Assembly: GCF_007826885.1 (NCBI RefSeq)
Contig: NZ_ML675580.1
Span: forward strand, 1-64,000
From: Candidatus Nitrosocosmicus arcticus
GTDB taxonomy: Archaea > Thermoproteota > Nitrososphaeria > Nitrososphaerales > Nitrososphaeraceae
DNA: 64,000 bases
Reading direction: 5' to 3'
Below are positions 2,510-39,266 of the stretch, in pieces. A program made the position numbers and the translations under genes. Position 1 is the first letter of the stretch. Every line of letters starts with the position of its first letter. The notes below the pieces were generated by a model, which made no database searches, had not been told where the DNA came from, and saw only the letters and a list, made by a program, of their open reading frames with translations.

Positions 2510-2527
2510 AAAAAGATTCATCTTTTT
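2510..2527 (+). terminator. Possible hairpin/T-tract terminator after binding-protein gene 1
   Basis: A perfect 8-bp inverted repeat, AAAAAGAT-TC-ATCTTTTT, ends in five T residues about 65 bp after the stop codon. Weak A/T stem. Archaeal termination mainly needs the T-tract, so it is plausible but unproven. Confidence 0.35.
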
Positions 2528-2641
2528 CATTAAGAACTTGTTAAAAAAGCATTGGAGTTAATAGAGAAATAAATTATTCAACTAACTTGATTCTTTTAGA
2601 CTTTAATATTGTCCAACGAAACCATCAAAATTGATTATGAA

Positions 2642-2986
2642 CTAACCTATGTTAGCCATATTATTATATTCTCCCTTTATTTTAATAGCATTAGAAAGAA
2701 TATTAGCTTTGATGAGGTCTAACTGATTGATCATTGATTTTTTTGATTCGTCATTTAGAGATAAGAAATGTAATTCCACCTTTTCGATATTGCTTGCTAT
2801 CTCGTTATTTCCAAATATGTTGGAATAGTTTTTCATTATCGATGCATTTGTTTCGATCATTTGTTTCTGTTGAAGAAATGCATTTTCAATCATATTTTTG
2901 AATTGAGTATAATTCAATTCGATCATTTGTTTCTGTTGAAAATATGCATTTTCAATCATATTTTTGAATTTCTCATTGTCAGTCAT
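2642..2986 (-). CDS. Small helical protein with a tandem 18-residue repeat
   Basis: 114 residues, not recognised. FKNMIENAYFQQKQMIEL (residues 7-24) is repeated as FKNMIENAFLQQKQMIET (29-46). The two copies are nearly identical in DNA too, pointing to a recent internal duplication. Composition (Met, Gln, Asn, Lys, Glu) and spacing predict long amphipathic helices or a coiled coil. There is no signal peptide or membrane span. It is the only gene on this strand between the binding-protein gene and the peptidase at 3790. The ATG at 2986 is the first in frame. Role unknown. Confidence 0.6.
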   Translation of the reverse strand: MTDNEKFKNMIENAYFQQKQMIELNYTQFKNMIENAFLQQKQMIETNASIMKNYSNIFGNNEIASNIEKVELHFLSLNDESKKSMINQLDLIKANILSNAIKIKGEYNNMANIG

Positions 2987-3388
2987 TATATAGTCTAATT
3001 TTGTTCTATAAACTATTTATATAAATATTGTTATTTCTTAGATTATTAATCAATTTATTTCCTAATACCTATAAAAATCTGATAAAATCGTTTCACTAAT
3101 AAAAAGAAATACCCCGTAGTTAATCTACTAACAATACTCTATTATCACGTATATCAGAGGTGGAGTGGTGGAAAAAAGCTTGGGATTAGAATCCTACTAC
3201 TCCATGGTACTTAATCCGCATAGGCCCTTTGCAATTTTATAATATCTGAAAGAAGTCGACTACAGAAATACTTTCAATGACTTAAATCACTACTGATAAT
3301 TTTGACAATCGGTGCCTCCTACCCTAGGGCTAATATTTTTATTTGAAGTTGAAAGTTCTATTAAGTTATAACTAAATGAATGGAAACC
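2987..3388. other. Intergenic stretch
   Basis: No supported gene. A GGATTAGAATCC motif near 3182-3196 resembles a tRNA T-arm, but no acceptor or anticodon arm can be folded around it. Confidence 0.4.
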
Positions 3389-3695
3389 ATGTCTAGAAGA
3401 CGTAAATTCGAATAACACTCTTATTTAATATCGAGGAAAAGTTTAACCTTCACCAGACTTCTGAATTTATGGATGGATATTATGGAAGTTTAAGATCATG
3501 CGGAAATTACGTCGGATGAAATAATTATCAAGAACCCCAGCAAAAATAGTGAAATCAAGGAATTGAAAGCCTCCAAATCAGTGCTACGAAAAACTTTCTC
3601 ATGCTCAAGGATTATCGGCAACAACTGATACCATCATTGGCGGTGCTTTTATTGTCGCTGCAGGATTGAGTGAATTAACAAAACAGTATCCATAA
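3389..3695 (+). pseudogene. Frameshifted remnant of an unidentified gene
   Basis: A reading track can be followed through three frames: MSRRRKFE from ATG 3389, then TLLFNIEEKFNLHQTSEFMD, then HAEITSDEIIIKNPSKNSEI, then LSHAQGLSATTDTIIGGAFI ending at TAA 3693-3695. Each segment has protein-like composition but is cut by frameshifts near 3410, 3490 and 3590. No family is recognised. The alternative is chance open frames. Confidence 0.35.
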
Positions 3696-3789
3696 CATAA
3701 ACAATTGTTACTCGAAAAATGGTAGTGGGTAGTCCTATTGATACCTTTCATACAAATAAGAGCATGAATTTCTGTCATAGTTAGTTGTA

Positions 3790-4692
3790 TTAGTGACTAT
3801 TGAAAGAATCTATTTTTAGAATGGTTGCTAATACCAACTTGGTAACTGAAGTCAAATAATCCCAATCAATATTTTCAGGTAGGTCTGAAGAGGAATGATA
3901 GTGCGGATTCTTTATTGAATCTGCAGAACCGTCATATGCACCAATTACCACATATCCATTTGCTTCGAAGGGTTCATAGTCGCTGTCATAAATGGAATCG
4001 AGATGAAATTGCAGACCAACGGAAGAAGTCATATCTTTCATCATCTCACCAAATTTAATTGATTCAGTATCATTTTCCCCGACCTGGTTATGTTTTACAT
4101 TGGTATTGTTATCTCTTTCAATAATTACTGTATTAGGTGCAAAAAATGGATAGCCAATCATATCTAGATTAACTAGTCTATACAAATCCATGCCATTCTC
4201 CTTGATGTATTTAGCGTAACTTTTAGAACCCAACAAACCTTGTTCTTCTCCTGAGAAGAAAACGAACTGGATAGAATGTTGAAGGTTTTCATTAGCCAAT
4301 ACTCGGGCTATTTCAATTATGGCACATACACCGCTACCGTTATCATTCGCTCCTGGTGCACGACTAACTGAATCCTCCTTGAGGTCCATAATGCAGTCAT
4401 AATGGGCACAAACCATAATCAATTTTTCATCAACTCCCTTTTTCTTACATACTATGTTTCTAAGTTCAAACTCTTCATTATCAATGGTCGACTTAAAGGA
4501 ATGATAAAAAGTATCCTTGTAACCGAAGCTTCGAAGTTCATTCATTATCCAATTACCTGCATCATTTAGAAGAGGTGATTTTGAATGCCTTGTATGAAAA
4601 TCAGATAAGCTATTCAGATATTGCTTTAAACTACCTGTTGATACCTTTTCTAGAATTGATCGTATGCTTGTTTCATTCTTATCGATGTTCAT
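3790..4692 (-). CDS. M28-family zinc aminopeptidase
   Basis: 300 residues with the full set of M28 (co-catalytic zinc) residues: His97 and Asp99 in AHYD, Asp117 in GANDNGSG, Glu149/Glu150 in FFSGEEQGLLGS, Asp177 in VNLDMIG, and His266 near the end in PHYHSSSD. Members remove N-terminal amino acids from peptides. No signal peptide is seen, so a cytoplasmic role in peptide turnover is likely. The ATG at 4692 is close to the first conserved helix and no longer frame is available. It is in the same orientation as the oxidoreductase at 4866-5807, 173 bp downstream of it, so co-transcription is possible but not required. Substrate preference cannot be read from sequence. Confidence 0.88.
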   Translation of the reverse strand: MNIDKNETSIRSILEKVSTGSLKQYLNSLSDFHTRHSKSPLLNDAGNWIMNELRSFGYKDTFYHSFKSTIDNEEFELRNIVCKKKGVDEKLIMVCAHYDCIMDLKEDSVSRAPGANDNGSGVCAIIEIARVLANENLQHSIQFVFFSGEEQGLLGSKSYAKYIKENGMDLYRLVNLDMIGYPFFAPNTVIIERDNNTNVKHNQVGENDTESIKFGEMMKDMTSSVGLQFHLDSIYDSDYEPFEANGYVVIGAYDGSADSIKNPHYHSSSDLPENIDWDYLTSVTKLVLATILKIDSFNSH

Positions 4693-4865
4693 CTCTACAT
4701 CCCTTAACTATTAATGAAAATTTTCTATCAGAAACTTGATTGCTTTCATCCGGGAGACCAATAAATCTTGTATCGCTACACATTTCAAAAGCCCTTCTCT
4801 CTTGTTTAGTTTTGCCACTCTTACTTACTTGACCAAAGGTTTTAAGTTCTTTTCCTCAATTCTGT

Positions 4866-5807
4866 TTACATGGTCAATACTATTTTTCCTCGGGGATGAA
4901 CATCTTTTACATAATTAAGTGCCTTTGAGGCTTCATCCAGTGAAAAAGTATTTTCAACATTTACTTTGATGTTATTTTGGTCAACCCATTGACCCAGTTG
5001 AGTCAATCGCTCCCTATTTACCTGTGTGAATAGGAATACGGCTTTTACGCCAAACTTTCCCATTAGATCGGTATTTGGTTGCTCCAGCATGGAAACGATT
5101 ATACCATTCCTCTTTACTACCTTGAAAGATTTTGTATATGTTTCTCCACCCACCGTATCAAAAACTGCATCATAATCATGCAACAAATCTTCAAATGAGT
5201 TTTTCTTGTAATCTATTACTTCATCCGCACCTAGTTTTTTTACAAAGTCCTTATCATCTGCACTGATTGTTGTCGCTACATATGCTCGTAAGAATTTAGC
5301 TAGCTGGATGGCTATAGAACCAATACCTCCTGCTCCTCCATGAATCAGGATTTTTTGACCCTCTGACAAGTTCATATTCTCTACAATACCCTGCCAAGCA
5401 CTAACTCCAACAAGAGGCAAAGCTGCTGCCTCAATATGGCTTAGACTTTTTGGCTTGGGTGCTATAATATTCATATTAGCCAAGGCCAATTCTGCAAATG
5501 CACCGGACCCACCATTTTGAATACTTGCCTGCCCATACACTTCATCACCCTCTTTAAAGTCTGTGGGAGAGTCTTGACCTCCAACTTGTCTAATAATACC
5601 TGAAAGGTCCATTCCCAATGTAGAGGGAAACTGGAGTGGTATCATTTCTTTCATAAAGCCTTCACGTATCTTCCAATCTACCGGGTTAACACCAGCTGCT
5701 TTTATGCTGACTAGAACCCTATCGGACGATATGTTTGGCATTTCAGTATTCTTGTTAATTTCGATGACATCACTCCCACCGTATTTATTAATTTGTACAG
5801 ATTTCAT
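4866..5807 (-). CDS. Zinc-free quinone-oxidoreductase-like NADP-dependent MDR enzyme
   Basis: 313 residues of the medium-chain dehydrogenase/reductase superfamily. The N-terminal GroES-like domain includes AAGVNPVDWKIREG (38-51) and GMDLSGIIRQVG (65-76). The Rossmann domain has the nucleotide motif ILIHGGAGGIGSIAIQLAKF near 153-172. The structural and catalytic zinc cysteines of alcohol dehydrogenases are missing, which places it with quinone oxidoreductase/enoyl reductase types. It probably reduces quinones or alpha,beta-unsaturated carbonyls with NADPH, for example in detoxification. The ATG at 5807 opens directly onto the first strand. It is divergent from the sensor kinase at 6044 across 236 bp. 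Confidence 0.88.
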   Translation of the reverse strand: MKSVQINKYGGSDVIEINKNTEMPNISSDRVLVSIKAAGVNPVDWKIREGFMKEMIPLQFPSTLGMDLSGIIRQVGGQDSPTDFKEGDEVYGQASIQNGGSGAFAELALANMNIIAPKPKSLSHIEAAALPLVGVSAWQGIVENMNLSEGQKILIHGGAGGIGSIAIQLAKFLRAYVATTISADDKDFVKKLGADEVIDYKKNSFEDLLHDYDAVFDTVGGETYTKSFKVVKRNGIIVSMLEQPNTDLMGKFGVKAVFLFTQVNRERLTQLGQWVDQNNIKVNVENTFSLDEASKALNYVKDVHPRGKIVLTM

Positions 5808-6043: not shown

Positions 6044-7660
6044 TTGAAAACGGGGTTTAAAACGGTAATCTCCAAAATAATAGTAAAATTCGGATTACTT
6101 TCACTTGTACATGTAATTTTTATTATTATCATTTTTGGTATACTAACCTATATTCAGTCACAACAAACCTTATTAGGAAACACTATTAATATCGCAGGTA
6201 AAAATCGTTACCTTACGTTAAATCTGCTATTTGAAATATCAGAATACATGGGTAACTCCCCTCCTCCCACAAGTATCGATAATAACAGTAATTCTCAAAT
6301 TCGAAATGCAGAACAACTACTAGAAACTAATATTATGACTCTAAAAAATGGTGGAATGATTTCAGGAGTAAACTTAAAACCACTCCCGAATGATTTTTTG
6401 GACAGTTGGAATAAAGTAAACTCACATTGGACAGATTTCAAAAGGCTGTTAAATAAGGAACTTTATGACAAAAGAGTCCCACAGAGCACCGATACTAACA
6501 TCGAGATTAATCAACCAGCAGCTACTAATTTAGATGATTCCTTAAAACAAGAACTCGTTCCAAGAGCTTATAAACTTGTTAATTCATCCGATGTATTGGT
6601 TACTCAAATAGGTCAAAAAGTAAAAAACAACTGGGATAATTTAATTATCCTGCAGATTATTTTTGGTGCTTTGATTGTGGTATTGATTCTGTTTATTTTG
6701 TTTATGGTCCGACGTTTGCTTAATCCCATCACTCTGCTAACAAGAGCTACTTCTGAGATAAAAAAAGGGAATTTTGACGTATCAGTTGACTACAAGAGTG
6801 GAGATGAACTTTCAGAGCTTACTGAATCATTTAATTCCATGGTATCTACTATAAGAAACGATGTAAAAAAACAATCTGAGATGACATACGAGTTAACCCA
6901 ATTAAATCAACAATTGAAAGAAAATGATAGGGCAAAGAATGAATTTATTTCTATGATAAGCCATGAGCTGAGGACACCATTAGTTCCAATTAGAGGATAT
7001 ATTGAAATGCTCTTAAAGCCCGAAAAAACTGGTATATTGAATGAGAAACAAAGAAAGGCCGTAGAAACAATTTATAGAAATGAAAAAAAACTTGAATCGT
7101 TAGTAGAGAATATATTAGATATCTATAAAATAGATATGGGTATCCTAATTCTCAACAAAAAGGAAATCTCAATCTCCAGTCTCTTAAATAATGTTATAAA
7201 TGATTTAAAATCTGCAATAGAAGAAAAGTGTGCTTCCGTAGTAACAGAAATTAATACAGTAGCGATAAAAAGCGTCACTTGTGATGAGAAAAGAATAGAA
7301 CAGGTACTATCCAATTTAATAAAGAATTCTCTTGATTTTGTTCCAAATAAGGCGGGTAATATTATCTTAAGAGTGGAAACATTACGCGAACAAAGAAATG
7401 AAAGAGACAGTATTGAATATCCTGGCAAAAACCAACTTGTATTTTCCGTAGAAGACAATGGTACTGGCATTCCGGTAGATAAAATGAATAAACTTTTTCA
7501 TAAATTCTATCAAATTGACTTGGCTATTACCCGAAAATACGGTGGAACTGGACTGGGTTTAGCAATATGTTGGGACATAATCGAAGCACATGGTGGTAAG
7601 ATATGGATTGATAAAGAGTATAGAGATGGTGCAGCATTCAGATTTACAATACCTTTTTAA
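6044..7660 (+). CDS. Membrane sensor histidine kinase with PilJ-like sensor and HAMP
   Basis: 538 residues. A membrane span at about 17-37 is followed by an extracytoplasmic region that opens with NTINIAGKNRYLTLNLLFEI, typical of the PilJ/NarX-like helical sensor. A second span lies at about 197-220, then HAMP (about 221-275), HisKA with the phosphoacceptor His307 in SHELRTP, and HATPase_c with N-box NLIKNSLDF (about 424), DNGTGIP and GGTGLGLAI. TTG at 6044 is the only start giving the first span a short basic lead. The receiver gene follows after 29 bp, so the pair is one operon. The last 26 codons and the receiver are identical in DNA to the second module (13999-14646). The signal is unknown; PilJ/NarX-type domains in some proteins sense nitrate-like anions. 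Confidence 0.88.
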   Translation: MKTGFKTVISKIIVKFGLLSLVHVIFIIIIFGILTYIQSQQTLLGNTINIAGKNRYLTLNLLFEISEYMGNSPPPTSIDNNSNSQIRNAEQLLETNIMTLKNGGMISGVNLKPLPNDFLDSWNKVNSHWTDFKRLLNKELYDKRVPQSTDTNIEINQPAATNLDDSLKQELVPRAYKLVNSSDVLVTQIGQKVKNNWDNLIILQIIFGALIVVLILFILFMVRRLLNPITLLTRATSEIKKGNFDVSVDYKSGDELSELTESFNSMVSTIRNDVKKQSEMTYELTQLNQQLKENDRAKNEFISMISHELRTPLVPIRGYIEMLLKPEKTGILNEKQRKAVETIYRNEKKLESLVENILDIYKIDMGILILNKKEISISSLLNNVINDLKSAIEEKCASVVTEINTVAIKSVTCDEKRIEQVLSNLIKNSLDFVPNKAGNIILRVETLREQRNERDSIEYPGKNQLVFSVEDNGTGIPVDKMNKLFHKFYQIDLAITRKYGGTGLGLAICWDIIEAHGGKIWIDKEYRDGAAFRFTIPF

Positions 7661-8096
7661 ACCGAGAAAATCGGTATAATAACGATACAATGAGTGCCGA
7701 TTCACCATCACTATCATCACCATCATCGGTAACACCAGTTTCCAGAGTTCTCATTATAGATGATAATGAGGACATAACCGAGTTGGTAAAAGACTACCTG
7801 GAAACAGAAGATATAGAATGTAAAATAATTAATAAAGGGATAGATGGACTCGAGGAAATACGAAAGAATGATAGATATTATAATGTGATTTTATTGGATC
7901 TTGCCATGCCAGAATTTAGCGGATTGGATGTTTTTAACAAACTAAAGGAAGAAAATTTGTTAAAGTCAAATAATGTGATAATATTTACTGCGTCGTCTAC
8001 GCAGAATAGTGAAATAAATGAGATGATGCAAGGTGGCGCTAAATATATTTTGAAAAAACCCTCTTCCATAGATGAAATACTCGACGTAGTTACAAG
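7449..8096 (+). repeat. Long direct repeat, copy A (kinase tail plus receiver)
   Basis: Compared base by base with 13999-14646 (constant offset 6550). Bases 7449-7518 and 7583-8096 are identical; the 64 bp between them differ. The repeat covers the kinase ATP-lid end, the intergenic hairpin and almost all of the receiver gene, then stops 22 bp before the receiver stop codon. This indicates recent duplication or gene conversion. Confidence 0.9.
7661..7675 (+). promoter_or_regulatory. Hairpin between kinase and receiver genes
   Basis: ACCGA-GAAAA-TCGGT begins right after the kinase stop codon and is preserved exactly at 14211-14225. A 5-bp stem with an A-rich loop and no downstream T-tract fits an mRNA processing or attenuation element, or a protein-binding palindrome, better than a terminator. 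It lies 15 bp ahead of the receiver ATG. Confidence 0.4.
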
Positions 8097-8118
8097 ATTT
8101 ACAATCAACATGAGATAG
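7690..8118 (+). CDS. Single-domain response regulator (REC), copy A
   Basis: 142 residues. After a Ser/Pro-rich N-terminal tail of about 18 residues comes one CheY-like receiver domain: acidic pocket VLIIDDNED, phosphoacceptor Asp70 in LLDLAMPE, the conserved Thr/Ser in IIFTAS, and the Lys of ILKKPSS. No output domain follows. It is the likely target of the kinase encoded 29 bp upstream. The protein is identical to that of 14240-14674 except for the last few residues, so both kinases should recognise the same partner. Output must go through another protein. Confidence 0.9.
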   Translation: MSADSPSLSSPSSVTPVSRVLIIDDNEDITELVKDYLETEDIECKIINKGIDGLEEIRKNDRYYNVILLDLAMPEFSGLDVFNKLKEENLLKSNNVIIFTASSTQNSEINEMMQGGAKYILKKPSSIDEILDVVTRFTINMR

Positions 8119-8658
8119 TAAGGATTAGGAGTCTTAAGCAACTTTTTTACATAACCTTTTCTATCCTTCTCTCTTCTTTTACTGGTATCACTATTCTAAT
8201 TTTATCAACTTAAGATGAGTTAATGATGAGTTACTATATACATTTAATTAGCATTTAAATGAAAAATGTTCAAGAAAGGAAAATCCGAATAAATGGAAAA
8301 ATTACAATAATTCAAAAAGAAGGATTTGGTCGTGGATAAAGTGAAATTCAGCGATAATGATAATATGGTAAACATTTACGGAATTTCAACATATACAATA
8401 AAGGGGAAGATGAAAATAATATGAAGATACAAATAAGAAACGCAGGCCCAGACAAGTTTATTGTAAATAATTGAACATTACTTAAAGCCCATGGTCTTTT
8501 TTTGGCTTTGCTGATTTCAGGTTAGATGCATTCTCACTTTTAATTCCATAGGTAGTAAAGATTATGAAAGTAGACTTTATGATGTATAATACTTATCTCT
8601 TAGTTAGTTAATCATAATATGGACTTTGAATAAGACTCAAAGTCAATTTCTTGTCATT
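8119..8658. other. Intergenic stretch with short open-frame fragments
   Basis: A 26-codon frame from ATG 8259 (MKNVQERKIRINGKITIIQK) runs close to another frame reading VDKVKFSDNDNMVNIYGIST. Together they look like a decayed small gene, but the evidence is thin. Nothing else is recognised. Confidence 0.3.
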
Positions 8659-10827
8659 TCACAAAATTAGATTTTCATCTGTCATGGGCAAGGTAAACGA
8701 AATCGTGGCTCCAATTCCATCATTATTTTTTTCAACCCAAATTTTGCCTTGGTGCATATTTATAATGTTCCTACAAATGTATAACCCTAATCCTGTACCA
8801 TAGAACGATTTTGTTGCAAACTTGGTAAATAGTCTTGGAAGTATTTCAGGATGAATTCCTTCACCGTTGTCTTTTATCTTGACCATTATATTATTTTCAA
8901 TTGTTCTGACAACTAAGGTTATAATACCATCAGCACCGTCGGCAATAAAATTAACAGAATTATCTATTAAATTTGAAATAACTTGAGCAATTCGAAGCTT
9001 ATCTCCAATCACCATATGTTTTTTTTCAAAACCAATAAGTTCAAACCGGATTTTTTTCTCTGAAATACCGTCTAATTTATATCTATTTTCAAGTAATGTT
9101 TCAAAATCCTTTATAACATCTAAAATTACTTCTATGAGACTAAACTTACTCTTCGAAATATTAAATAAATTTCCTTCAATCTTGGTCACTGTAAGAATGT
9201 TTTCAGTTAATGTGTGTAATTTTTGTGCACTCGCGATTACGATCTCGAGTAACCCTTTCTGTTCCTTGTCATCTAGATTATCTCTTACGTGTTCTGTTAA
9301 ACCAATAATTGGCTGAACAGGTGTCCGTAACTCATGTGCAACAATGTCTATGAACTCACGTTGCATCTTGTCATGAATTTTAAGTCTGGCATATGCGTTC
9401 TTTAAAAAATAGTATAATTCTGATTGGTTCCATAGTGAATCAAAGATAAATGCGTACGAATTCGATATGGGTATGCTATTTGAATAAGAAGCAAGTCCAA
9501 TGGAATCTAATGGATCTCCGGACATATTATTTTTGAACTCTACGATTAATGATTTATTCCTATCAACTACTAACAGCCCTATTTCTGACTGAATCTCGTT
9601 ACTAGAGATCGATCTAATTTTCACATTCATGAGAGAATTAATGGTAAAGTCAAATGGCTGCGTATTGACATTCTCTGTATGAAACCTTCTATTGTTGTCT
9701 TGCAAAAGATAAAAATCATTCTTGAACAATTCATTGATATCCTTCTGTCTTTGGAGATCTATTTTGTCGGTAACAAGAATCTTGACAGATAAATCCTTAT
9801 TTTGAACCGCATTTTTAATATCCAGGAAAAAGTCATTTTCCACCTGTCTCTTGAAGGAATCAAAAGTTGGAAGTATTCCTAGGATCTCCTGCTTAGCTGA
9901 CGATATCAGGCTTTTTATCAAACCAAATGTTTCATCGGATTTTTCAATCGTTTCAATAAAGGCTATATCCATCTCTTCTTCAATTGAATGAATTATATCT
10001 GTAGCTTCCCTGCTATTTTTCCATAATTTGTTAAATAATGAGTTAAAATTACGTATGTATGCAGGTTCGTTGCTGTATAGGATACTCCCCACAAAATCCT
10101 TGTCAGTCAGTCTCTCTATACCTGCTGCCAATTGCGATTCTGTAACACTAAAATTGATAAATTGGATCTCTTTTAGGTGACGAATATCCACACCCAAATC
10201 AAGATAATTTTTAACCAAATCTATATTGTCGTTTGATATTTCAATTAAAATTCTGATACCTTTGTGGAGTCCTTTTTTCTTTCGCTCTAATAGACTCTTT
10301 GCCAAAGGTAGAAAAAATTTATGACCAATTCTCAGGCCTTCAGTAGTAATACAAACGTTTAATTCGTTGGAATCAAAATAAATTGACTTAAATTCTTCAA
10401 CTAACAAGGAACCACTGGATTTCGTTATTATCTTGGTTTCATAATCTGTTTTACCCTCCTCAATTTCCAGTATTTTTTTTCTTGCGGGTATAGCATTTCT
10501 CCAAAGGGTATCAAAAATATATTGCCCTTGTGCAACTACCTCATTTACGTTGCTATAAATAATGTGAGTTGACGCTCGTTCTTTTCTAAGAACTGTCGTA
10601 GCCATATATTCAGACTCATTGATTGCAATGCCGCCCTTTAAGCCATCCAGATGTCGTAGTTCACTAACCCAATTTAATAATTCTTTGCAGTATTGAATAT
10701 TTTCAGGAGTAACCTCGGTAATACATCTAATTATTCCGCCTCTATCTAAAATAGCTTTGTAACCATTACAATAAACGGGGAGCTTAACTACTCTGGACGG
10801 GTCAGAATAGTCCAACGTAACATCCAT
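8659..10827 (-). CDS. Soluble sensor histidine kinase with repeated PLD-like/TrmB-C-like sensor units
   Basis: 722 residues with no membrane span. The C terminus is a standard kinase core: HisKA with His498 in AHELRTP, N-box NLIDNSVNFI, DNGEGI and GTGLGLYI. The first 460 residues hold what look like three sensor units, each closing on a Phe-x-x-LW motif: YIFDTLWRN (about 90), FNSLFNKLWKN (about 255) and FIFDSLWNQ (about 450). The last unit, with VVDRNKSLIVEFKNN and SIGLASYSNS, resembles the phospholipase-D-like regulatory domain of TrmB-type regulators. The second and third units and the kinase core align with the cytoplasmic part of the kinase at 59284-62340. No receiver gene is adjacent on this strand. 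It points away from the binding-protein gene at 11236. Confidence 0.85.
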   Translation of the reverse strand: MDVTLDYSDPSRVVKLPVYCNGYKAILDRGGIIRCITEVTPENIQYCKELLNWVSELRHLDGLKGGIAINESEYMATTVLRKERASTHIIYSNVNEVVAQGQYIFDTLWRNAIPARKKILEIEEGKTDYETKIITKSSGSLLVEEFKSIYFDSNELNVCITTEGLRIGHKFFLPLAKSLLERKKKGLHKGIRILIEISNDNIDLVKNYLDLGVDIRHLKEIQFINFSVTESQLAAGIERLTDKDFVGSILYSNEPAYIRNFNSLFNKLWKNSREATDIIHSIEEEMDIAFIETIEKSDETFGLIKSLISSAKQEILGILPTFDSFKRQVENDFFLDIKNAVQNKDLSVKILVTDKIDLQRQKDINELFKNDFYLLQDNNRRFHTENVNTQPFDFTINSLMNVKIRSISSNEIQSEIGLLVVDRNKSLIVEFKNNMSGDPLDSIGLASYSNSIPISNSYAFIFDSLWNQSELYYFLKNAYARLKIHDKMQREFIDIVAHELRTPVQPIIGLTEHVRDNLDDKEQKGLLEIVIASAQKLHTLTENILTVTKIEGNLFNISKSKFSLIEVILDVIKDFETLLENRYKLDGISEKKIRFELIGFEKKHMVIGDKLRIAQVISNLIDNSVNFIADGADGIITLVVRTIENNIMVKIKDNGEGIHPEILPRLFTKFATKSFYGTGLGLYICRNIINMHQGKIWVEKNNDGIGATISFTLPMTDENLIL

Positions 10828-11235
10828 TTTAATTTTGGTATTTTGTATTAAATGATATGCCTTTTCTACAATATTTTTAGAACTGTATAAAATTTCAGAC
10901 TTACCGTCGTTAGTAACACTATCCGATATGACTAATCAAATTTATAGTACATTTGCCATATATATAAGATTATTTATTACCTGAATTGATGTTAGCTTTT
11001 GTTTAAATGGTCTTAAACGGTTTTGAATCTCAATATTAATTTAATGAACGTATGAATTATTAGACATATAATAAAATCTTAAACTACCCGTACATAATTC
11101 CAAATATAAAAGAAAATTTTAATTAGGAATCCATAAACTATGGTCCGTGTTTAATAATACTTTCTTGTCTTAGACTTCTCTTAGTAAAGCTAGATAGGGA
11201 AAAATACTTGTCTATATATCCTTAATGTGTACAGA
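10828..11235. other. Divergent intergenic region between the soluble kinase and binding-protein gene 2
   Basis: About 400 bp of AT-rich DNA serving as a promoter region for both divergent genes. Apart from the 17-mer at 11191-11207 no gene or structured element is seen. Confidence 0.45.
11191..11207 (+). promoter_or_regulatory. Shared upstream element, copy 2
   Basis: Exact copy of the 17-mer TAGATAGGGAAAAATAC found at 1374-1390 ahead of the paralogous gene. It lies 28 nt ahead of the ATG at 11236 and 19 nt ahead of an in-frame GTG at 11227. Confidence 0.45.
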
Positions 11236-12261
11236 ATGAGACCTAAACAATTGGATAGGAAACTACATATTTTTCTAGTTTTCAGTATTATTGTAATAGT
11301 ATTTTCAAATTCATTTAGTTTAATATATGCACAAATTTCAAGTGAAAAACCAATAAGATTTTCAGTAAATGTATGGGCTCCGAATTTTTTAGCATATATT
11401 GCTCAAGAAAAGGGATATTTTGAAAAAAACAATGTGAATGTAAACCTCACATTAATTCAAGATTATTCGGATGCGGTTAGAGATTATGCAAATGGAAAAC
11501 ATGATGGGATGTTTGTAGTCTATTCTGATGTCATTGTGCAGGACTCGGAAGGAATTGATACTAAAGTTGTATACAATATTGATACATCATATGATGCGGA
11601 TGCAATTATAGGTAGTGTAAACAACCTCACGGAAGTAATGGGTAAAAAAGTGGGTGTTGAAGGAATCAACAGTTTTTCACATTATTTTATGTTAAAATCT
11701 CTGGAAAATGTAGGTCTTAGCGAAGCGAATGTTGAATTTGTGAATATTCCTGCTCAAAATATATCAGATGCATTAAAGAAAAGTGAGATCGATGCAGGTC
11801 ACACATATAATCCATACATATCAGATTCATTAAAGAATGGATTTAAAATTCTCTCCATAGGTGCAAATGCACCTGGTGTTATAACCACCGTATTAGCATT
11901 TCATTCAGATATAGTGAAACAAAGACCACTGGATGTTCAGAACATCATAAAATCATTGATAGAAGCAAAAGAAGATTATGATAAAAATAGAGAGCAAGAT
12001 ATAGAAATAATGTCCGTAAGTACGGGCATAAACAAAACGGATATCATCAATGGGATGGATGGTGCCAAACTCTTGGATTTAGATTATAACACTCAATTTT
12101 CAATGAATAAGGAACTAAATACAACAGCTTCACTATACAACTCGGGAAAGTCTATTGCAAAATTTTATGCAGAAAGGGGAGTGATTACTGAATATCCAGA
12201 TATTGAAGACATTATTGAACCAAAATTTGTCAACGAATTATTGATGGAAAAAAATCAATAA
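11236..12261 (+). CDS. Exported NMT1/ThiY-like solute-binding protein, copy 2
   Basis: 341 residues from the ATG at 11236. I prefer this start to GTG 11227 because it aligns with the start of the paralogue at 1413 (MRPKQLDRKL against MPSIQLDRKL). It has a signal sequence ending near YAQ, then the NMT1-type fold with VWAPNFLAYIAQEKGYFEKN. The ligand-pocket region around 75-125 (YDADAIIGSVNNLTEV and neighbours) is almost unchanged from copy 1, whereas residues about 180-200 and the C-terminal third differ. The two may therefore bind related but not identical ligands. The stop codon is 29 bp before a Cache sensor kinase, and no transporter genes are nearby. The likeliest reading is that it presents a ligand to that kinase, although transport with distant components is not excluded. 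Confidence 0.82.
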   Translation: MRPKQLDRKLHIFLVFSIIVIVFSNSFSLIYAQISSEKPIRFSVNVWAPNFLAYIAQEKGYFEKNNVNVNLTLIQDYSDAVRDYANGKHDGMFVVYSDVIVQDSEGIDTKVVYNIDTSYDADAIIGSVNNLTEVMGKKVGVEGINSFSHYFMLKSLENVGLSEANVEFVNIPAQNISDALKKSEIDAGHTYNPYISDSLKNGFKILSIGANAPGVITTVLAFHSDIVKQRPLDVQNIIKSLIEAKEDYDKNREQDIEIMSVSTGINKTDIINGMDGAKLLDLDYNTQFSMNKELNTTASLYNSGKSIAKFYAERGVITEYPDIEDIIEPKFVNELLMEKNQ

Positions 12262-12290
12262 AAATGAAATATCTTCAGGGGGACTAGTAT

Positions 12291-14210
12291 TTGAAAATTA
12301 GAACAAAGCTCATCATCACTATGATTCCACTAGTTTCTTTCTCAATACTGATACTGTCCTATGTGGGGTTTCAGAATTTTGTAACAGCTATACAGACTCA
12401 GTTAATTAATGAATTAAAAACGATGGCCAGTCATACAATGAATAATCTATCGCATCAAATGTTTGAAAGGATTGCCGACGTACAATTTCTGTCTACGAGT
12501 AATATCCTTGTGAATTCAAATCTAACAATATCTGAAAAGATGGACTATCTTCGTTCATTGGAAAAATCATTCAAGACATATTTATCGATTTCCCTATATA
12601 ATAAAGAGGGTATTAAGATTGGAGATACAAGAAATATACTTTTAGGGAAAAATGAATCCCAAAAAACATTCTTTAATGAAGCTGTGAAGGGAAAAATGTA
12701 CTATGATACCATACCTACCCTATCTGAATCTTTAAATCAGTATGTAATACATTTTGCAGCACCATTGTATAACGAAAGTAAAGAGATTGAAGGGGTGGTA
12801 GTTACAAGACAGGCAATAAATAAAATAAACGATATTTTCAAGGAAATCGAATTTCCGGATGAACAATTAGATTCGGAGGGCAGCAGTCTTAAATTGGATT
12901 TAATATCTGGCAATGGAACAGTGATATATTCAAACCATGATAGAAGCTCAATTCTGCAAATCATGCCCGGATTTCATGAATTAATCTCAAGAAATGATCA
13001 GCAGAATAATATGTCTATATTGAATCCCAGTTCAGCAGAAACTCGAATTGATGCTGACGAAATAATTGTGAGCGTGCCACAGGGAGATGGCCACTTAGAC
13101 TATAAGGGAAGTGGTTGGTTTCTTTTACTGAGGGAAAATACAGATGTCGTATTTGGAAATTTACAGAAAACAGTAGACCAGTTTCTAATAATTTCCGGCA
13201 TCATATTAGTAATTTCTATAATCCTTATATTGTTCATTGCTAGGACTATTTCTTTACCCATAACAAAACTTATGAAAAAGGTAATTGAAGTAGGTAAGGG
13301 AAATTATGATTCTAGAATTGATATCAAAAGCTCAGACGAAGTCGGGCAATTGGCATCCCATTTTGATTCCATGAGGCAGAGTGTAAATCAGGTGAACCAG
13401 ACTTTAAATAAAAGGGTTATGGAGAGAACACTGGAACTAGAAAAAGCAAATGAGGAATTAAAACTTAATGATGAATATTTAGGGAAAATAAACAAGGAAT
13501 TGGTATCAGCAGACAAAGCAAAAGAAGAATTTATGTCAATGGTTAGTCATGAATTAAAAACTCCGCTAGTCCCTGCTAAAGGATATGTTGAGCTTCTTCT
13601 TAAACAAAAAAAAACAGGGGAACTGAATGAAAAGCAAAAGAAATACGCAAGTATTGTATACAGAAATATAATAAAATTAGAAGTACTCGTTAATGATGTT
13701 CTTGATGGATACAAGATTGATATGGGAAGGTTGAAAATTCAAAAAAATTTAGTAAATGTAACGGATTTAATTTCGTCAGTTGTATCGGATTTACCGTCTC
13801 TAATTGGTGAAAAACAAATTATTATCAAGTTAGATTCAAAAATAAAGGAAGAAACTGCTATTATGTGTGACCAAAGGAGGATTGAGCAAGTATTTGCAAA
13901 TTTGATCAAAAACTCGATCGACTTTGTGCCAGAAGGCAATGGTAAAATAACTATATCGGCGGAATTGATTCAAAACGAAACGATGGTTCAATTTTCGATA
14001 GAAGACAATGGTACTGGCATTCCGGTAGATAAAATGAATAAACTTTTTCATAAATTCTATCAAATTGATACAAGCTTAATAAGAAAGCACGGTGGCAGTG
14101 GACTTGGTTTAGCAATCTCAAAGGGCATTGTAGAAGCACATGGTGGTAAGATATGGATTGATAAAGAGTATAGAGATGGTGCAGCATTCAGATTTACAAT
14201 ACCTTTTTAA
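12291..14210 (+). CDS. Membrane sensor histidine kinase with dCache sensor and HAMP
   Basis: 639 residues. The N-terminal span is at about 9-29. A large extracytoplasmic double-Cache domain follows (about 35-295, with typical FLSTSNILVNS and VIHFAAPLYNESKEIEGVVV strands). The second span is at about 298-320, then HAMP, a coiled-coil linker ending EEFMSMVSHELKTP with phosphoacceptor His420, and HATPase_c with NLIKNSIDFVP, DNGTGIP and GGSGLGLAI. The TTG start at 12291 has a good Shine-Dalgarno run (AGGGGGA) about 8 bp upstream. It is in an operon with the binding protein (29-bp gap) and the receiver (29-bp gap). The DNA of its C-terminal end is identical to that of the kinase at 6044. Confidence 0.9.
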   Translation: MKIRTKLIITMIPLVSFSILILSYVGFQNFVTAIQTQLINELKTMASHTMNNLSHQMFERIADVQFLSTSNILVNSNLTISEKMDYLRSLEKSFKTYLSISLYNKEGIKIGDTRNILLGKNESQKTFFNEAVKGKMYYDTIPTLSESLNQYVIHFAAPLYNESKEIEGVVVTRQAINKINDIFKEIEFPDEQLDSEGSSLKLDLISGNGTVIYSNHDRSSILQIMPGFHELISRNDQQNNMSILNPSSAETRIDADEIIVSVPQGDGHLDYKGSGWFLLLRENTDVVFGNLQKTVDQFLIISGIILVISIILILFIARTISLPITKLMKKVIEVGKGNYDSRIDIKSSDEVGQLASHFDSMRQSVNQVNQTLNKRVMERTLELEKANEELKLNDEYLGKINKELVSADKAKEEFMSMVSHELKTPLVPAKGYVELLLKQKKTGELNEKQKKYASIVYRNIIKLEVLVNDVLDGYKIDMGRLKIQKNLVNVTDLISSVVSDLPSLIGEKQIIIKLDSKIKEETAIMCDQRRIEQVFANLIKNSIDFVPEGNGKITISAELIQNETMVQFSIEDNGTGIPVDKMNKLFHKFYQIDTSLIRKHGGSGLGLAISKGIVEAHGGKIWIDKEYRDGAAFRFTIPF

Positions 14211-14646
14211 ACCGAGAAAATCGGTATAATAACGATACAATGAGTGCCGATTCACCATCACTATCATCACCATCATCGGTAACACCAGTTTCCAGAGTTC
14301 TCATTATAGATGATAATGAGGACATAACCGAGTTGGTAAAAGACTACCTGGAAACAGAAGATATAGAATGTAAAATAATTAATAAAGGGATAGATGGACT
14401 CGAGGAAATACGAAAGAATGATAGATATTATAATGTGATTTTATTGGATCTTGCCATGCCAGAATTTAGCGGATTGGATGTTTTTAACAAACTAAAGGAA
14501 GAAAATTTGTTAAAGTCAAATAATGTGATAATATTTACTGCGTCGTCTACGCAGAATAGTGAAATAAATGAGATGATGCAAGGTGGCGCTAAATATATTT
14601 TGAAAAAACCCTCTTCCATAGATGAAATACTCGACGTAGTTACAAG
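13999..14646 (+). repeat. Long direct repeat, copy B (kinase tail plus receiver)
   Basis: Matches 7449-8096 at offset 6550. There are two identical blocks (13999-14068 and 14133-14646) with a diverged 64-bp window between them that encodes the kinase-specific ATP-lid segment. Confidence 0.9.
14211..14225 (+). promoter_or_regulatory. Hairpin between kinase and receiver genes, copy B
   Basis: ACCGA-GAAAA-TCGGT immediately after the kinase stop codon, identical to 7661-7675 and part of the long direct repeat. Confidence 0.4.
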
Positions 14647-14674
14647 CTTTACAATCAAGAAAGATGAGAATTAA
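14240..14674 (+). CDS. Single-domain response regulator (REC), copy B
   Basis: 144 residues, identical to the receiver at 7690-8118 up to residue 135. It then ends SFTIKKDEN instead of RFTINMR. It has the same Ser/Pro-rich N-terminal tail, phosphoacceptor Asp70 and conserved Lys. It is the last gene of the binding protein - kinase - receiver operon and has no output domain. Identity of the two receivers means signals from the PilJ-like and Cache kinases probably converge. Confidence 0.9.
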   Translation: MSADSPSLSSPSSVTPVSRVLIIDDNEDITELVKDYLETEDIECKIINKGIDGLEEIRKNDRYYNVILLDLAMPEFSGLDVFNKLKEENLLKSNNVIIFTASSTQNSEINEMMQGGAKYILKKPSSIDEILDVVTSFTIKKDEN

Positions 14675-36058: not shown

Positions 36059-37825
36059 TTAACGAGAAACCTCCATTAACAACTCTTTAAACTGGTTATT
36101 CATATTTATTTTAATTTCCTCGACTTTTTGTTCAACCTGGTCTTCCTTGGTCCATTTTATCATCGATAATTCTTTTCGTGCCCCGATGGAACTTATTTTA
36201 GTTGATGTTACGCCCTTCTTAATAGCATCTGCTTCCAATCTGCCAAATTCTAAAATAGTTGCCAACATCAAAAACTGTTTCTTTATTGAGGTATATGTAT
36301 CAACCTCATCGTATGCGCTTTGTTGTAAGTAATCTTCTCTAATAGAACGAGCCGTATCCAAAATCCCTTTTTCAGGTTCAGGGAGAGCATCATACCCTAT
36401 TAGCTGAACAATTTCCTGTAGCTCAGATTCTCTCTGCAGAATTCCTAGTGCCTCCTTCCTCAATGTAGTCCATTGCGGCGAAATATTATGCTTGTACCAT
36501 TCATCCATATCGTCTGCGTACAATGAGTAACTTGTCAACCAATTTATTGATGGAAAGTGCCTTCTTGATGCCAAATTAGCGTCTAACCCCCAGAACACAC
36601 GTGTAACCCTCAAGGTATTTTGGGAAACAGGTTCGGAAAAATCTCCACCAGGCGGTGAAACGGCTCCTACTAATGTCAATGATCCTACCCTTTTTTCTGG
36701 TGAAATCACAACTGCTTTTCCTCCCCTTTCATAAAATTCAGCCAAGCGCCTGCCCAGATAAGCAGGATACCCTTCTTCGCCGGGCATTTCCTCAAGTCTA
36801 CCCGAAATCTCTCTCAGGGCTTCAGCCCATCTGGAAGTACTGTCGGCCATCAATGCGACATCGTATCCCATGTCTCGGTAATATTCACCCATGGTTATAC
36901 CCGTGTAGATGCTTGCTTCACGTGCAGCTACCGGCATATTAGAGGTATTGGCAACCAAAATTGTTCTCTCCATTAAAGGCCTCTTTGATTTTGGGTCTTC
37001 TAGCTCAGGGAAAGTAGTAAGTATCTCAGTCATTTCATTCCCTCGTTCTCCGCAACCAATGTACACGATAACACTGCTATCAGCCCATTTTGCAAGTTGC
37101 TGTTGGGTTACTGTTTTTCCACTGCCGAATGGGCCGGGTATTGCAGCGGTTCCTCCCTTAGCAACAGGGAAGAAGGTATCCAATACTCGTTGTCCGGTAA
37201 GTAAGGGCGATTCGGGTGGCAACTTTTTAAAGACGGGTCTGGGTGTTCTTACCATCCACCAGCTAGACATTCCAACAACTGATTTCCCGTTTGTTGTTTT
37301 TATTTCAGCTACGTTCTCATTTACAGTATATTTACCCTCACTTATTTCAGATATTTTGCCGTTAATTCCAAAAGGCACCATTATTTTATGACTAATGAGC
37401 GGGGTTTCCTGAACCTCACCCAATATTTCACCTTCTTGAACTTCATCATTTTTATTTTTTCTAGTAATGAATTCCCATTTCTTGTGTTGATCTAACGCTG
37501 GAATTGTGACACCTCTCCCTATAAAATCTCCACTCTTTTCTCTTAAAACATCTAATGGGCGCTGAATCCCGTCATAAATAGATTTTAGTAAACCTGGTCC
37601 TAATTGCATGGACAAAGGTCTCTTAGTATTAATTATTTTTTCACCAGGCCTTAACCCTGTGGTATCTTCATAAACCTGAATAGTGGCCTTATTTCCTTCC
37701 AAACGAATAATCTCTCCTAATAATCCTAATTCTCCAATACGTACAACATGATACATTTCTGCATCCTCTACATCAGTAGCCACAACTACTGATCCTGAAA
37801 TACGTGATACTATTGAACTTGACAT
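36059..37825 (-). CDS. atpA: A/V-type ATPase catalytic subunit A
   Basis: 588 residues, the usual archaeal length with no intein. Walker A GPFGSGKT with Lys237, the catalytic Glu in [20 protein letters not shown], the non-homologous insert of A-subunits (about 120-190), and the [20 protein letters not shown] block are all intact. It hydrolyses or makes ATP in the A3B3 head. ATG 37825 follows subunit F by 22 bp. Sequence alone does not decide between proton pumping and ATP synthesis. Confidence 0.97.
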
Positions 37826-37847
37826 ATTTCCCTACCTTTCACTCTTA

Positions 37848-38189
37848 TTATCTGGTTTTAATACTTATCCCAAGTACTCGTTTTGCCAGAGCCGCAATAG
37901 ACTCCTCATGAATAGTGCCCTGCAAGGCAGGCATGAAAATAACCAATGGATCTATGGATGATTCAATTTTTGATCTCGTCAATTGAGACAGCGAATCTTG
38001 AACGAATTGACTTGCTACTATGAGATTATATTTGTGAGAGGAAAAAAGATTTTCCATTTTTTTCACTGCTTCATTTTTGTCGGTAACGGTAAAGGTATCC
38101 TCAACACCCAATAACCTATAACCCATAACTATTTCTCTTTCGCCAATTACTGCAATAGATTTAATATTCTCTTTTTTCTTACTTGACAT
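37848..38189 (-). CDS. atpF: A/V-type ATPase subunit F
   Basis: 113 residues with the Rossmann-like fold of subunit F: SIAVIGEREIVMGYRLLGVE, then YNLIVASQFVQDSL and PLVIFMPALQGT. It binds the central shaft beside subunit D. There is a 9-bp gap to subunit C upstream. The N-terminal Lys-rich tail MSSKKKENIK precedes the first strand. Confidence 0.9.
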   Translation of the reverse strand: MSSKKKENIKSIAVIGEREIVMGYRLLGVEDTFTVTDKNEAVKKMENLFSSHKYNLIVASQFVQDSLSQLTRSKIESSIDPLVIFMPALQGTIHEESIAALAKRVLGISIKTR

Positions 38190-38198
38190 CTTATTATC

Positions 38199-39266
38199 CT
38201 ACTCCAAAACCAACAAAGAATTAATACGCTCTGGGGTTAAATTATATCGTTTACCGTACGCAATCCTTTTGATATTGTCCCATTCAAATTCTGCACTTAT
38301 AATAAAGTAAAAAATTGTACCAATCGATAACGCTATATTCTTTAGTTTTCTTGCATAATGATTGTTTATGTATTTATCCATAGCAACTTCAAAGTCAATA
38401 AGGTTATGTGTTTTCAAATAATTATCTAACAAATCACCAAATTTTATGTGTTCGGTAATCCTGTTTACAAAATCTTCAATGCTGTTTGATGTAAAGATTT
38501 CCAATAATTTTTCAATCGGAACTTTACCCTCTTCTATAAGATGTTTCTTGACAATATCTCTATCAAGATTTGAATCTTTTCCCTTTAATAGGGTTAATAT
38601 ATTCTTTTTATCAATTTGAGTGCGAAATAAATCTCTCGCTATTCCTTCGTCGCCTTGGAAAAATTTGATACTTTCTAACAGATTTATGTAGTAAAAAGAC
38701 AAGAGTTCAGTCATCATTGGACTTATATCAGAGGTCTTTTGATATGTATCTAGATTCTGTATCAAGATAGTTCCATACTTGTACTTTACTAGTTGATTAA
38801 CAACGCCTTCTACTGTTGGCTGAGCTAATATTATTTTCATCTCGTCATGTGGAATGTTACCTGCCGTGATTCCAGCCGGAAAATTTCGACTAGATACCAA
38901 GAATGGTTCTGTTTCTGTAATATTGCGCCCTATGACTTTAGATGACAGAATTAGTTCAATATTGTATATATCCCATTTAGAAAAATAAGCTCGGATTGCT
39001 TGCCTCCCACTAAAAGGAGTAGTTTCAAGTGCAATCTTATTGACCTCGACCAAATGTCGATTAATAGCAACTTCCAATAATTCGGGCGGGGAATAAAGAG
39101 CAGCAGCCCGGTCAATTTCAGCTCCATACCATGTAGATTCCAACTTTCTTGCGACCTCGTTAACGTCCTCGGCTTTAACTAGACTTTGAATAAACTCGGG
39201 TGAAAGGAAATTGGTTGATATTGCCTGCAATCTTCCAAAAGCAGAAGAATAAGATGATGTGGTCAT
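38199..39266 (-). CDS. atpC: A/V-type ATPase subunit C (d subunit)
   Basis: 355 residues, all-helical. The opening YSSAFGRLQAISTNFLSPEF is typical of subunit C/d, followed by FSKWDIYNIELILSSKVIGR and repeated three-lobe helices (DKKNILTLLKGKDSNLDR). It seats the central shaft on the c-ring. One base separates it from subunit E, indicating translational coupling. Confidence 0.9.
   Translation of the reverse strand: MTTSSYSSAFGRLQAISTNFLSPEFIQSLVKAEDVNEVARKLESTWYGAEIDRAAALYSPPELLEVAINRHLVEVNKIALETTPFSGRQAIRAYFSKWDIYNIELILSSKVIGRNITETEPFLVSSRNFPAGITAGNIPHDEMKIILAQPTVEGVVNQLVKYKYGTILIQNLDTYQKTSDISPMMTELLSFYYINLLESIKFFQGDEGIARDLFRTQIDKKNILTLLKGKDSNLDRDIVKKHLIEEGKVPIEKLLEIFTSNSIEDFVNRITEHIKFGDLLDNYLKTHNLIDFEVAMDKYINNHYARKLKNIALSIGTIFYFIISAEFEWDNIKRIAYGKRYNLTPERINSLLVLE

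Follow-up and report, generated by a model that had tools for sequence, protein, structure and literature searches.

Probable gene conversion through the kinase tail and receiver of two sensor modules in Candidatus Nitrosocosmicus arcticus

A central question raised by one gene cluster in the ammonia-oxidising archaeon Candidatus Nitrosocosmicus arcticus is how two kinases with different sensors came to share the same DNA through the kinase tail and into the adjoining receiver gene. The cluster lies in the 64,000-nucleotide stretch analysed here (G000:C3:1-64000, hereafter the window; G000 is the window genome, 2.64 Mb in 22 contigs). A first-pass annotation had explained the identity either by recent gene conversion or by a recent duplication followed by replacement of the front part of one module. 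To address this, we compared the cluster with relatives from the genus (G002, G003, G004, G011 and G014). The results point to a genuine conversion, of fairly recent date, between the two kinase–receiver modules; one of the kinases had probably gained its tail and receiver in an earlier transfer.

Two kinase–receiver modules

Kinase A (6044–7660, forward strand, 538 amino acids) and kinase B (12291–14210, forward strand, 639 amino acids) were delineated from open reading frames and Pfam matches; both start with TTG. Each carries HAMP, HisKA and HATPase_c domains, the latter two above the Pfam cut-off, and both have an intact H-box (SHELRTP/SHELKTP) and G boxes (DNGTGI; GTGLGL/GSGLGL type). The fronts had been described as PilJ-like in kinase A and Cache in kinase B; they do differ, although these labels are weaker than stated, as both matches fall below the Pfam curated cut-offs (PilJ, 20.5 bits; dCache_1, 41.3 bits). 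Similarly, the HisKA regions are different, as had been reported, and are also related, with 45 of 69 residues identical (65%) compared with 51–52% to a third paralogue.

Each kinase is followed by a stand-alone receiver on the same strand, receiver A at 7690–8118 (142 amino acids) and receiver B at 14240–14674 (144 amino acids). In both, the Response_reg domain (PF00072) covers residues 20–134, there is no output domain and the DD, LLDLAMP, FTAS and KKP motifs are present. Residues 1–136 are identical in the two proteins, and residue 137 and the C-terminal tail are different. Receiver B ends in a native C terminus (...TIKKDEN) that has the same form in relatives, whereas the C terminus of receiver A past 8108 is non-homologous to all of them. 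The 29-bp spacer between kinase A and receiver A (7661–7689, forward strand) contains a short hairpin (ACCGA/TCGGT), the folding energy of which is not significant (z = −1.5).

Three elements separate the modules. Segment X (8109–8683), defined by homology search, has no substantial homologue among the 14 other genus genomes searched. It is followed by HK8659, a divergently oriented histidine kinase (8659–10827, reverse strand, 722 amino acids; open reading frame and Pfam), and by a gene for an NMT1/THI5-like substrate-binding protein (11227–12261, forward strand; Pfam and tree) that precedes kinase B. HK8659, the NMT1-like gene, kinase B and its receiver form a conserved unit.

Identical tracts flank a divergent island

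The base-for-base identity that had been reported at an offset of 6550 holds, and its two blocks are the only identical runs of at least 20 bp between the modules. Tract 1 (7449–7518 in copy A, 13999–14068 in copy B; 70 of 70 positions) lies in the HATPase coding sequence, DNGTGI...KFYQID. Tract 2 (7583–8096 and 14133–14646; 514 of 514 positions) comprises the kinase tail, the spacer with its hairpin and most of the receiver. Both were established by offset comparison and base-level alignment, on the forward strand in each copy, and identity at this offset is otherwise at background level. Between them is a 64-bp island in the ATP-lid/G2-box region (7519–7582 and 14069–14132, forward strand) that stayed A-type in kinase A (84% identity to G014, 59% to copy B) and is B-type in kinase B (88% to G011).

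Base-level alignment places the limits of homology at 7441–8108 and 13991–14658, broken by the island. There are two mismatches in 7441–7448 and one in 8097–8108, at position 8097, where copy A, G014 and the relatives have A and copy B has C; beyond 8108 the copies are unrelated in sequence. Excluding the island, the copies differ at 1 of 596 positions (7449–7518 plus 7583–8108). Identity between the paralogues is thus far higher in the tracts (100%) than before the tail (42%), in the island (59%) or after the receiver (36%). The ungapped tract score of the pair is 519, and that of the next sampled kinase pair in the genome is 22; the repeat is far beyond chance.

An exact repeat longer than the reads, in what is likely a short-read assembly, could arise if one tail–receiver copy were a misjoin or a consensus copy of the other, and G014 shows an alternative path through such a repeat (see below). 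SPAdes can merge isolated differences within a run that is longer than the k-mer. The N. arcticus Kfb genome was assembled with SPAdes from 150-bp pairs with a 900-bp insert, using k up to 105, and 400-bp IonTorrent reads (PMC6657660). As the 514-bp run is longer than k, isolated substitutions deep inside it may have been flattened, which makes exact identity in the middle of the run less certain; unique flanking sequence protects tract 1 and, in tract 2, the outermost ~105 bp. Against a misjoin, the copies differ at 8097 and in their unique flanks, the repeat fits within the insert length, and k is greater than the 70 bp of tract 1. The joins themselves recur in other genomes, with the A-type tail and receiver adjoining in G014 and the B-type kinase and receiver in G011, G002 and G003. 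We therefore consider a pure assembly artefact very improbable.

Relatives reveal a switch of affinity

To scale divergence between genomes, we used a conserved operon of the window (36059–39266), which has 98% identity to G014, 88% to G011, 78% to G002 and G003, and 72% to G004; by this measure, G014 is the closest relative, a sister species. The unit containing kinase B is kept in G011 (81% DNA identity), G002 (73%) and G003 (73%, with HK8659 in fragments only), and in these three relatives kinase B retains its receiver partner. Kinase B and its receiver are 65–82% identical to those of G003 and 81–92% identical to those of G011, ranges that include the operon values for the same genomes, with no step in divergence at the tail boundary in either comparison.

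Kinase A behaves differently. Its 3′ half is present in G014, with 81% identity before the tail and 89–96% over the spacer and receiver. In the tract segments, G014 is 90%, 92% and 94% identical to copy A, while copies A and B are 100% identical; the coding tracts of A equal those of B, yet are 87–91% identical to the B-type sequence of G011. Uniform divergence along both modules, which would have spoken against a conversion, is found only for B compared with G011 and G003, and not for A compared with G014.

Trees built by segment change accordingly. Before the tail, A-type sequences (window A, G014 and the A-type kinase of G004) are separated from B-type sequences (window B, G011, G002 and G003) by branches with 96–99% support. 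In the island, window A and G014 stand apart from the rest (100% support), and in both tracts the window copies are one sequence. Tract 1 of kinase A is 87% identical to the B-type kinase of G003, 83% to that of G002 and 64% to the A-type kinase of G004, which is the reverse of the affinity before the tail. This G004 kinase (G004:C22:16418-17251) has no receiver match alongside, and no other A-type kinase core was found beyond the window and G014. Within the tracts, identities and trees agree that A and B are closer to each other than either is to its own orthologue. The tracts, the topology switch and the arrangements in relatives are direct observations.

This pattern bears out the earlier suggestion of recent gene conversion: the topology switches by segment, and the two window copies nearly match in tracts where the sister differs by 6–10%. 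The pattern is best read as non-reciprocal recombination with a patchy tract rather than as a uniform duplication or a simple assembly error. As G014 is already 6–10% different in the tracts, the homogenisation would be much younger than the split from G014.

The other route that had been proposed, recent duplication of the whole module with later replacement of the front (sensor and HisKA) in one copy, draws some support from the tandem arrangement and from the duplication of the nearby NMT1-like gene. This scheme is not required, and we consider it quite improbable. An A-type island between two homogenised tracts disfavours it, as front replacement alone cannot produce such an island; moreover, the part of kinase A before the tail belongs to an old lineage, shared with G014 and distantly with the A-type kinase of G004, and the NMT duplication long predates the tail identity.

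The NMT1-like gene has a history of its own. The gene and its upstream region are duplicated in the window at 79% identity (1242–2436 and 11059–12259). The copy at 1413 most resembles the gene within the corresponding block of G011 (84%), and the copy at 11227–12261 groups with an orphan paralogue in G003 (100% support) and not with the in-block orthologues. This placement suggests that the first gene of the kinase B block has been exchanged too. A separate, two-copy tandem-like repeat of 53 bp with 66-bp spacing (2852–2904 and 2918–2970) also occurs in G014.

The locus in the sister genome

In G014, an A-type pre-tail region and island are followed by a frameshifted receiver, 119 bp that match the flank of receiver B, and ORF16519. 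The contig end overlaps (99% identity, 251 bp) the end of the contig that holds the counterpart of window region 2510–5615. The A side is thus joined to the B side, with everything between the two repeats missing, and the NMT gene is absent. A crossover between the same direct repeats, with loss of the 6.55 kb between them, would be expected to give this product. The module (G014:C218, locus L072, 7751–8692) looks like a decayed remnant: the receiver has lost 2 bp, and the kinase, which adjoins an inverted kinase fragment, is truncated near residue 384. Given this frameshift and truncation, it is a weak functional witness. An A-like kinase front on another G014 contig (C247) was considered as the missing half of this kinase and rejected because its HisKA differs; it belongs to another kinase, whose sensor is related.

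The same arrangement invites the opposite polarity, in which a single sister-like locus (A-type kinase, receiver and B-type flank) acquired a unit of segment X, HK8659, NMT gene, kinase B and receiver in the window lineage. Two near-identical copies would arise at once if the unit entered at the receiver through one crossover accompanied by gap repair. G014 shows exactly the un-inserted order, including the lack of the NMT gene. The unit lies elsewhere in G011, on a contig that, apart from the unit itself, has nothing in common with the upstream or downstream flanks in the window, and ORF14960–ORF16519 are on a separate G011 contig; a circular intermediate could have closed at 8108, where receiver A meets segment X. 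However, integration would require a separate earlier event for the B-like tail of kinase A, would still require conversion for the identity of tract 1 upstream of the island, and sits poorly with the divergence of the B unit from G011 and G003, which is close to that predicted by vertical descent. We regard integration as unlikely.

Direction and order of the exchanges

From these comparisons, we infer a direction of transfer, an order of events and a shared receiver function; identical sequences alone cannot fix the first two. Kinases A and B would be two old and clearly different sensor kinases in one cluster, with kinase B and its stand-alone receiver as the ancestral, conserved pair. The 3′ part of the kinase A HATPase and the adjoining receiver would have been copied from B by homologous recombination that entered at conserved HATPase coding sequence and ended non-homologously at 8108. 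As the A-type kinase of G014 also has a B-like tail and receiver, this first transfer would predate the split from the sister. Later, in the window lineage, conversion between the 6.55-kb direct repeats may have rendered both copies near-identical again, with the 64-bp A-type island escaping either because the conversion was discontinuous or because selection opposed it there. The full sequence of early transfer to A, later re-conversion and merged input is, in our assessment, probable.

Several features favour the view that the tail and receiver originally belonged to kinase B. Its pairing with the receiver is conserved in three species; receiver B and the G014 receiver retain the native 3′ end, whereas homology of receiver A to any relative stops after 8108; and the A-type kinase of G004 lacks an adjoining receiver match and has a tail unlike that of kinase A. 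The abrupt break inside receiver A argues for one-sided copying. B is uniformly diverged from G011 and G003 and has kept its receiver end, which favours it as the probable donor; site-pattern counts do not discriminate, because the sister species G014 groups with the window either way.

Related exchanges in the genus

We scanned sampled kinase pairs within genomes, covering 12 to 23 motif-bearing kinases in G000, G004 and G007 and 6–7 in G005 and G013. The A/B pair is the only large tract among the sampled pairs in the window genome. Three further kinase-tail tracts were found among the sampled kinases of G004, a more distant relative. On contig C22, inverted A-type and B-type kinases share 116 bp at 99% identity (L077, 13210–13338 and 16456–16584), covering the island. 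Contigs C8 (L130, ~6221–6720) and C13 (L131) share 483 bp at 96%, from the HATPase through the kinase end into the next receiver gene, and C33 and C196 share a HATPase tract at ~94%. The C8/C13 tract has the same anatomy as the window pair. No large tract was found among the sampled kinases of G005, G007 and G013, where partial coverage makes this a weak absence. Reshuffling of this kind seems to recur in Nitrosocosmicus.

These tracts also bear on the island, which had been suggested to matter for kinase identity. It is kinase-type-specific in relatives, which fits a function, but in G004 it has been converted (98% identity between A-type and B-type kinases), so divergence at this site is not required in general. 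In G004 the B-type kinase seems to have a broken reading frame (a split tblastn match and a 298-amino-acid open frame), so this pair may be decaying.

Elsewhere in the window genome, a family of three kinases (C4:141800–145500, L109; C4:53500–57000, L111; C7:145500–148700, L107) has 74–82% DNA identity with scattered exact runs of 39–50 bp, possibly reflecting older conversion.

Discussion

Gene adjacency, the identity of the receivers over residues 1–136 with their motifs kept, and the 65% HisKA identity make it plausible that two sensors feed one common pool of stand-alone receiver. Both kinases would supply phosphate to a chemically identical protein, giving a merged or OR-type input to a CheY-like protein that may work through protein contacts. 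In models of two-component evolution, duplicated pairs diverge and so avoid cross-talk; homogenisation here runs the opposite way, and two kinases with different sensors end up with the same receiver.

The sharp near-identical tracts, the segment-wise switch of topology and the patchy island are those of gene conversion and concerted evolution among paralogues. Unlike the usual cases, the tract crosses a kinase tail, a non-coding spacer and the neighbouring receiver gene, coupling the genes of a signalling pair, and it ends without homology on the 3′ side. Histidine-kinase domain shuffling and lineage-specific expansion have been discussed for myxobacteria, with duplication and input-domain shuffling as general routes of two-component evolution and gene conversion raised only as a possibility (PMC4603909). 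The window likewise has different sensor fronts on related kinase cores; what sets it apart is that the recombination tract is readable at base level, together with relatives. In Thaumarchaeota, some three in four response regulators are stand-alone receivers, and near-identical two-component proteins that arose by tandem duplication have been reported (PMC5847659). As in those CheY-like cases, a receiver-only regulator adjoins a sensor kinase, but rather than whole-gene tandem duplicates the window has two non-identical kinases that each have the same receiver, apparently by conversion. In Nitrososphaerales, the order of the window organism, signal-transduction families are among those enlarged by duplication during genome expansion (PMC7603488); gene conversion and two-component systems are not mentioned by those terms in that work. 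Our literature search turned up no publication describing conversion between the tails of histidine kinases.

The process is already known. What is new is a base-level example in this group of a new sensor being attached to an existing receiver, and a hint that the kinase tail and receiver are a repeated target. Soil ammonia oxidisers have many sensor kinases, mostly of unknown target. We tentatively suggest, as a possibility short of an expectation, that the HATPase tail and stand-alone receiver form a recurrently recombining cassette in Nitrosocosmicus, exchanged via conserved ATP-binding coding sequence, that moves a receiver behind new sensors or keeps the receivers of different sensors identical. 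If so, signalling inputs in these archaea would be rewired and merged by gene conversion and not by whole-gene duplication.
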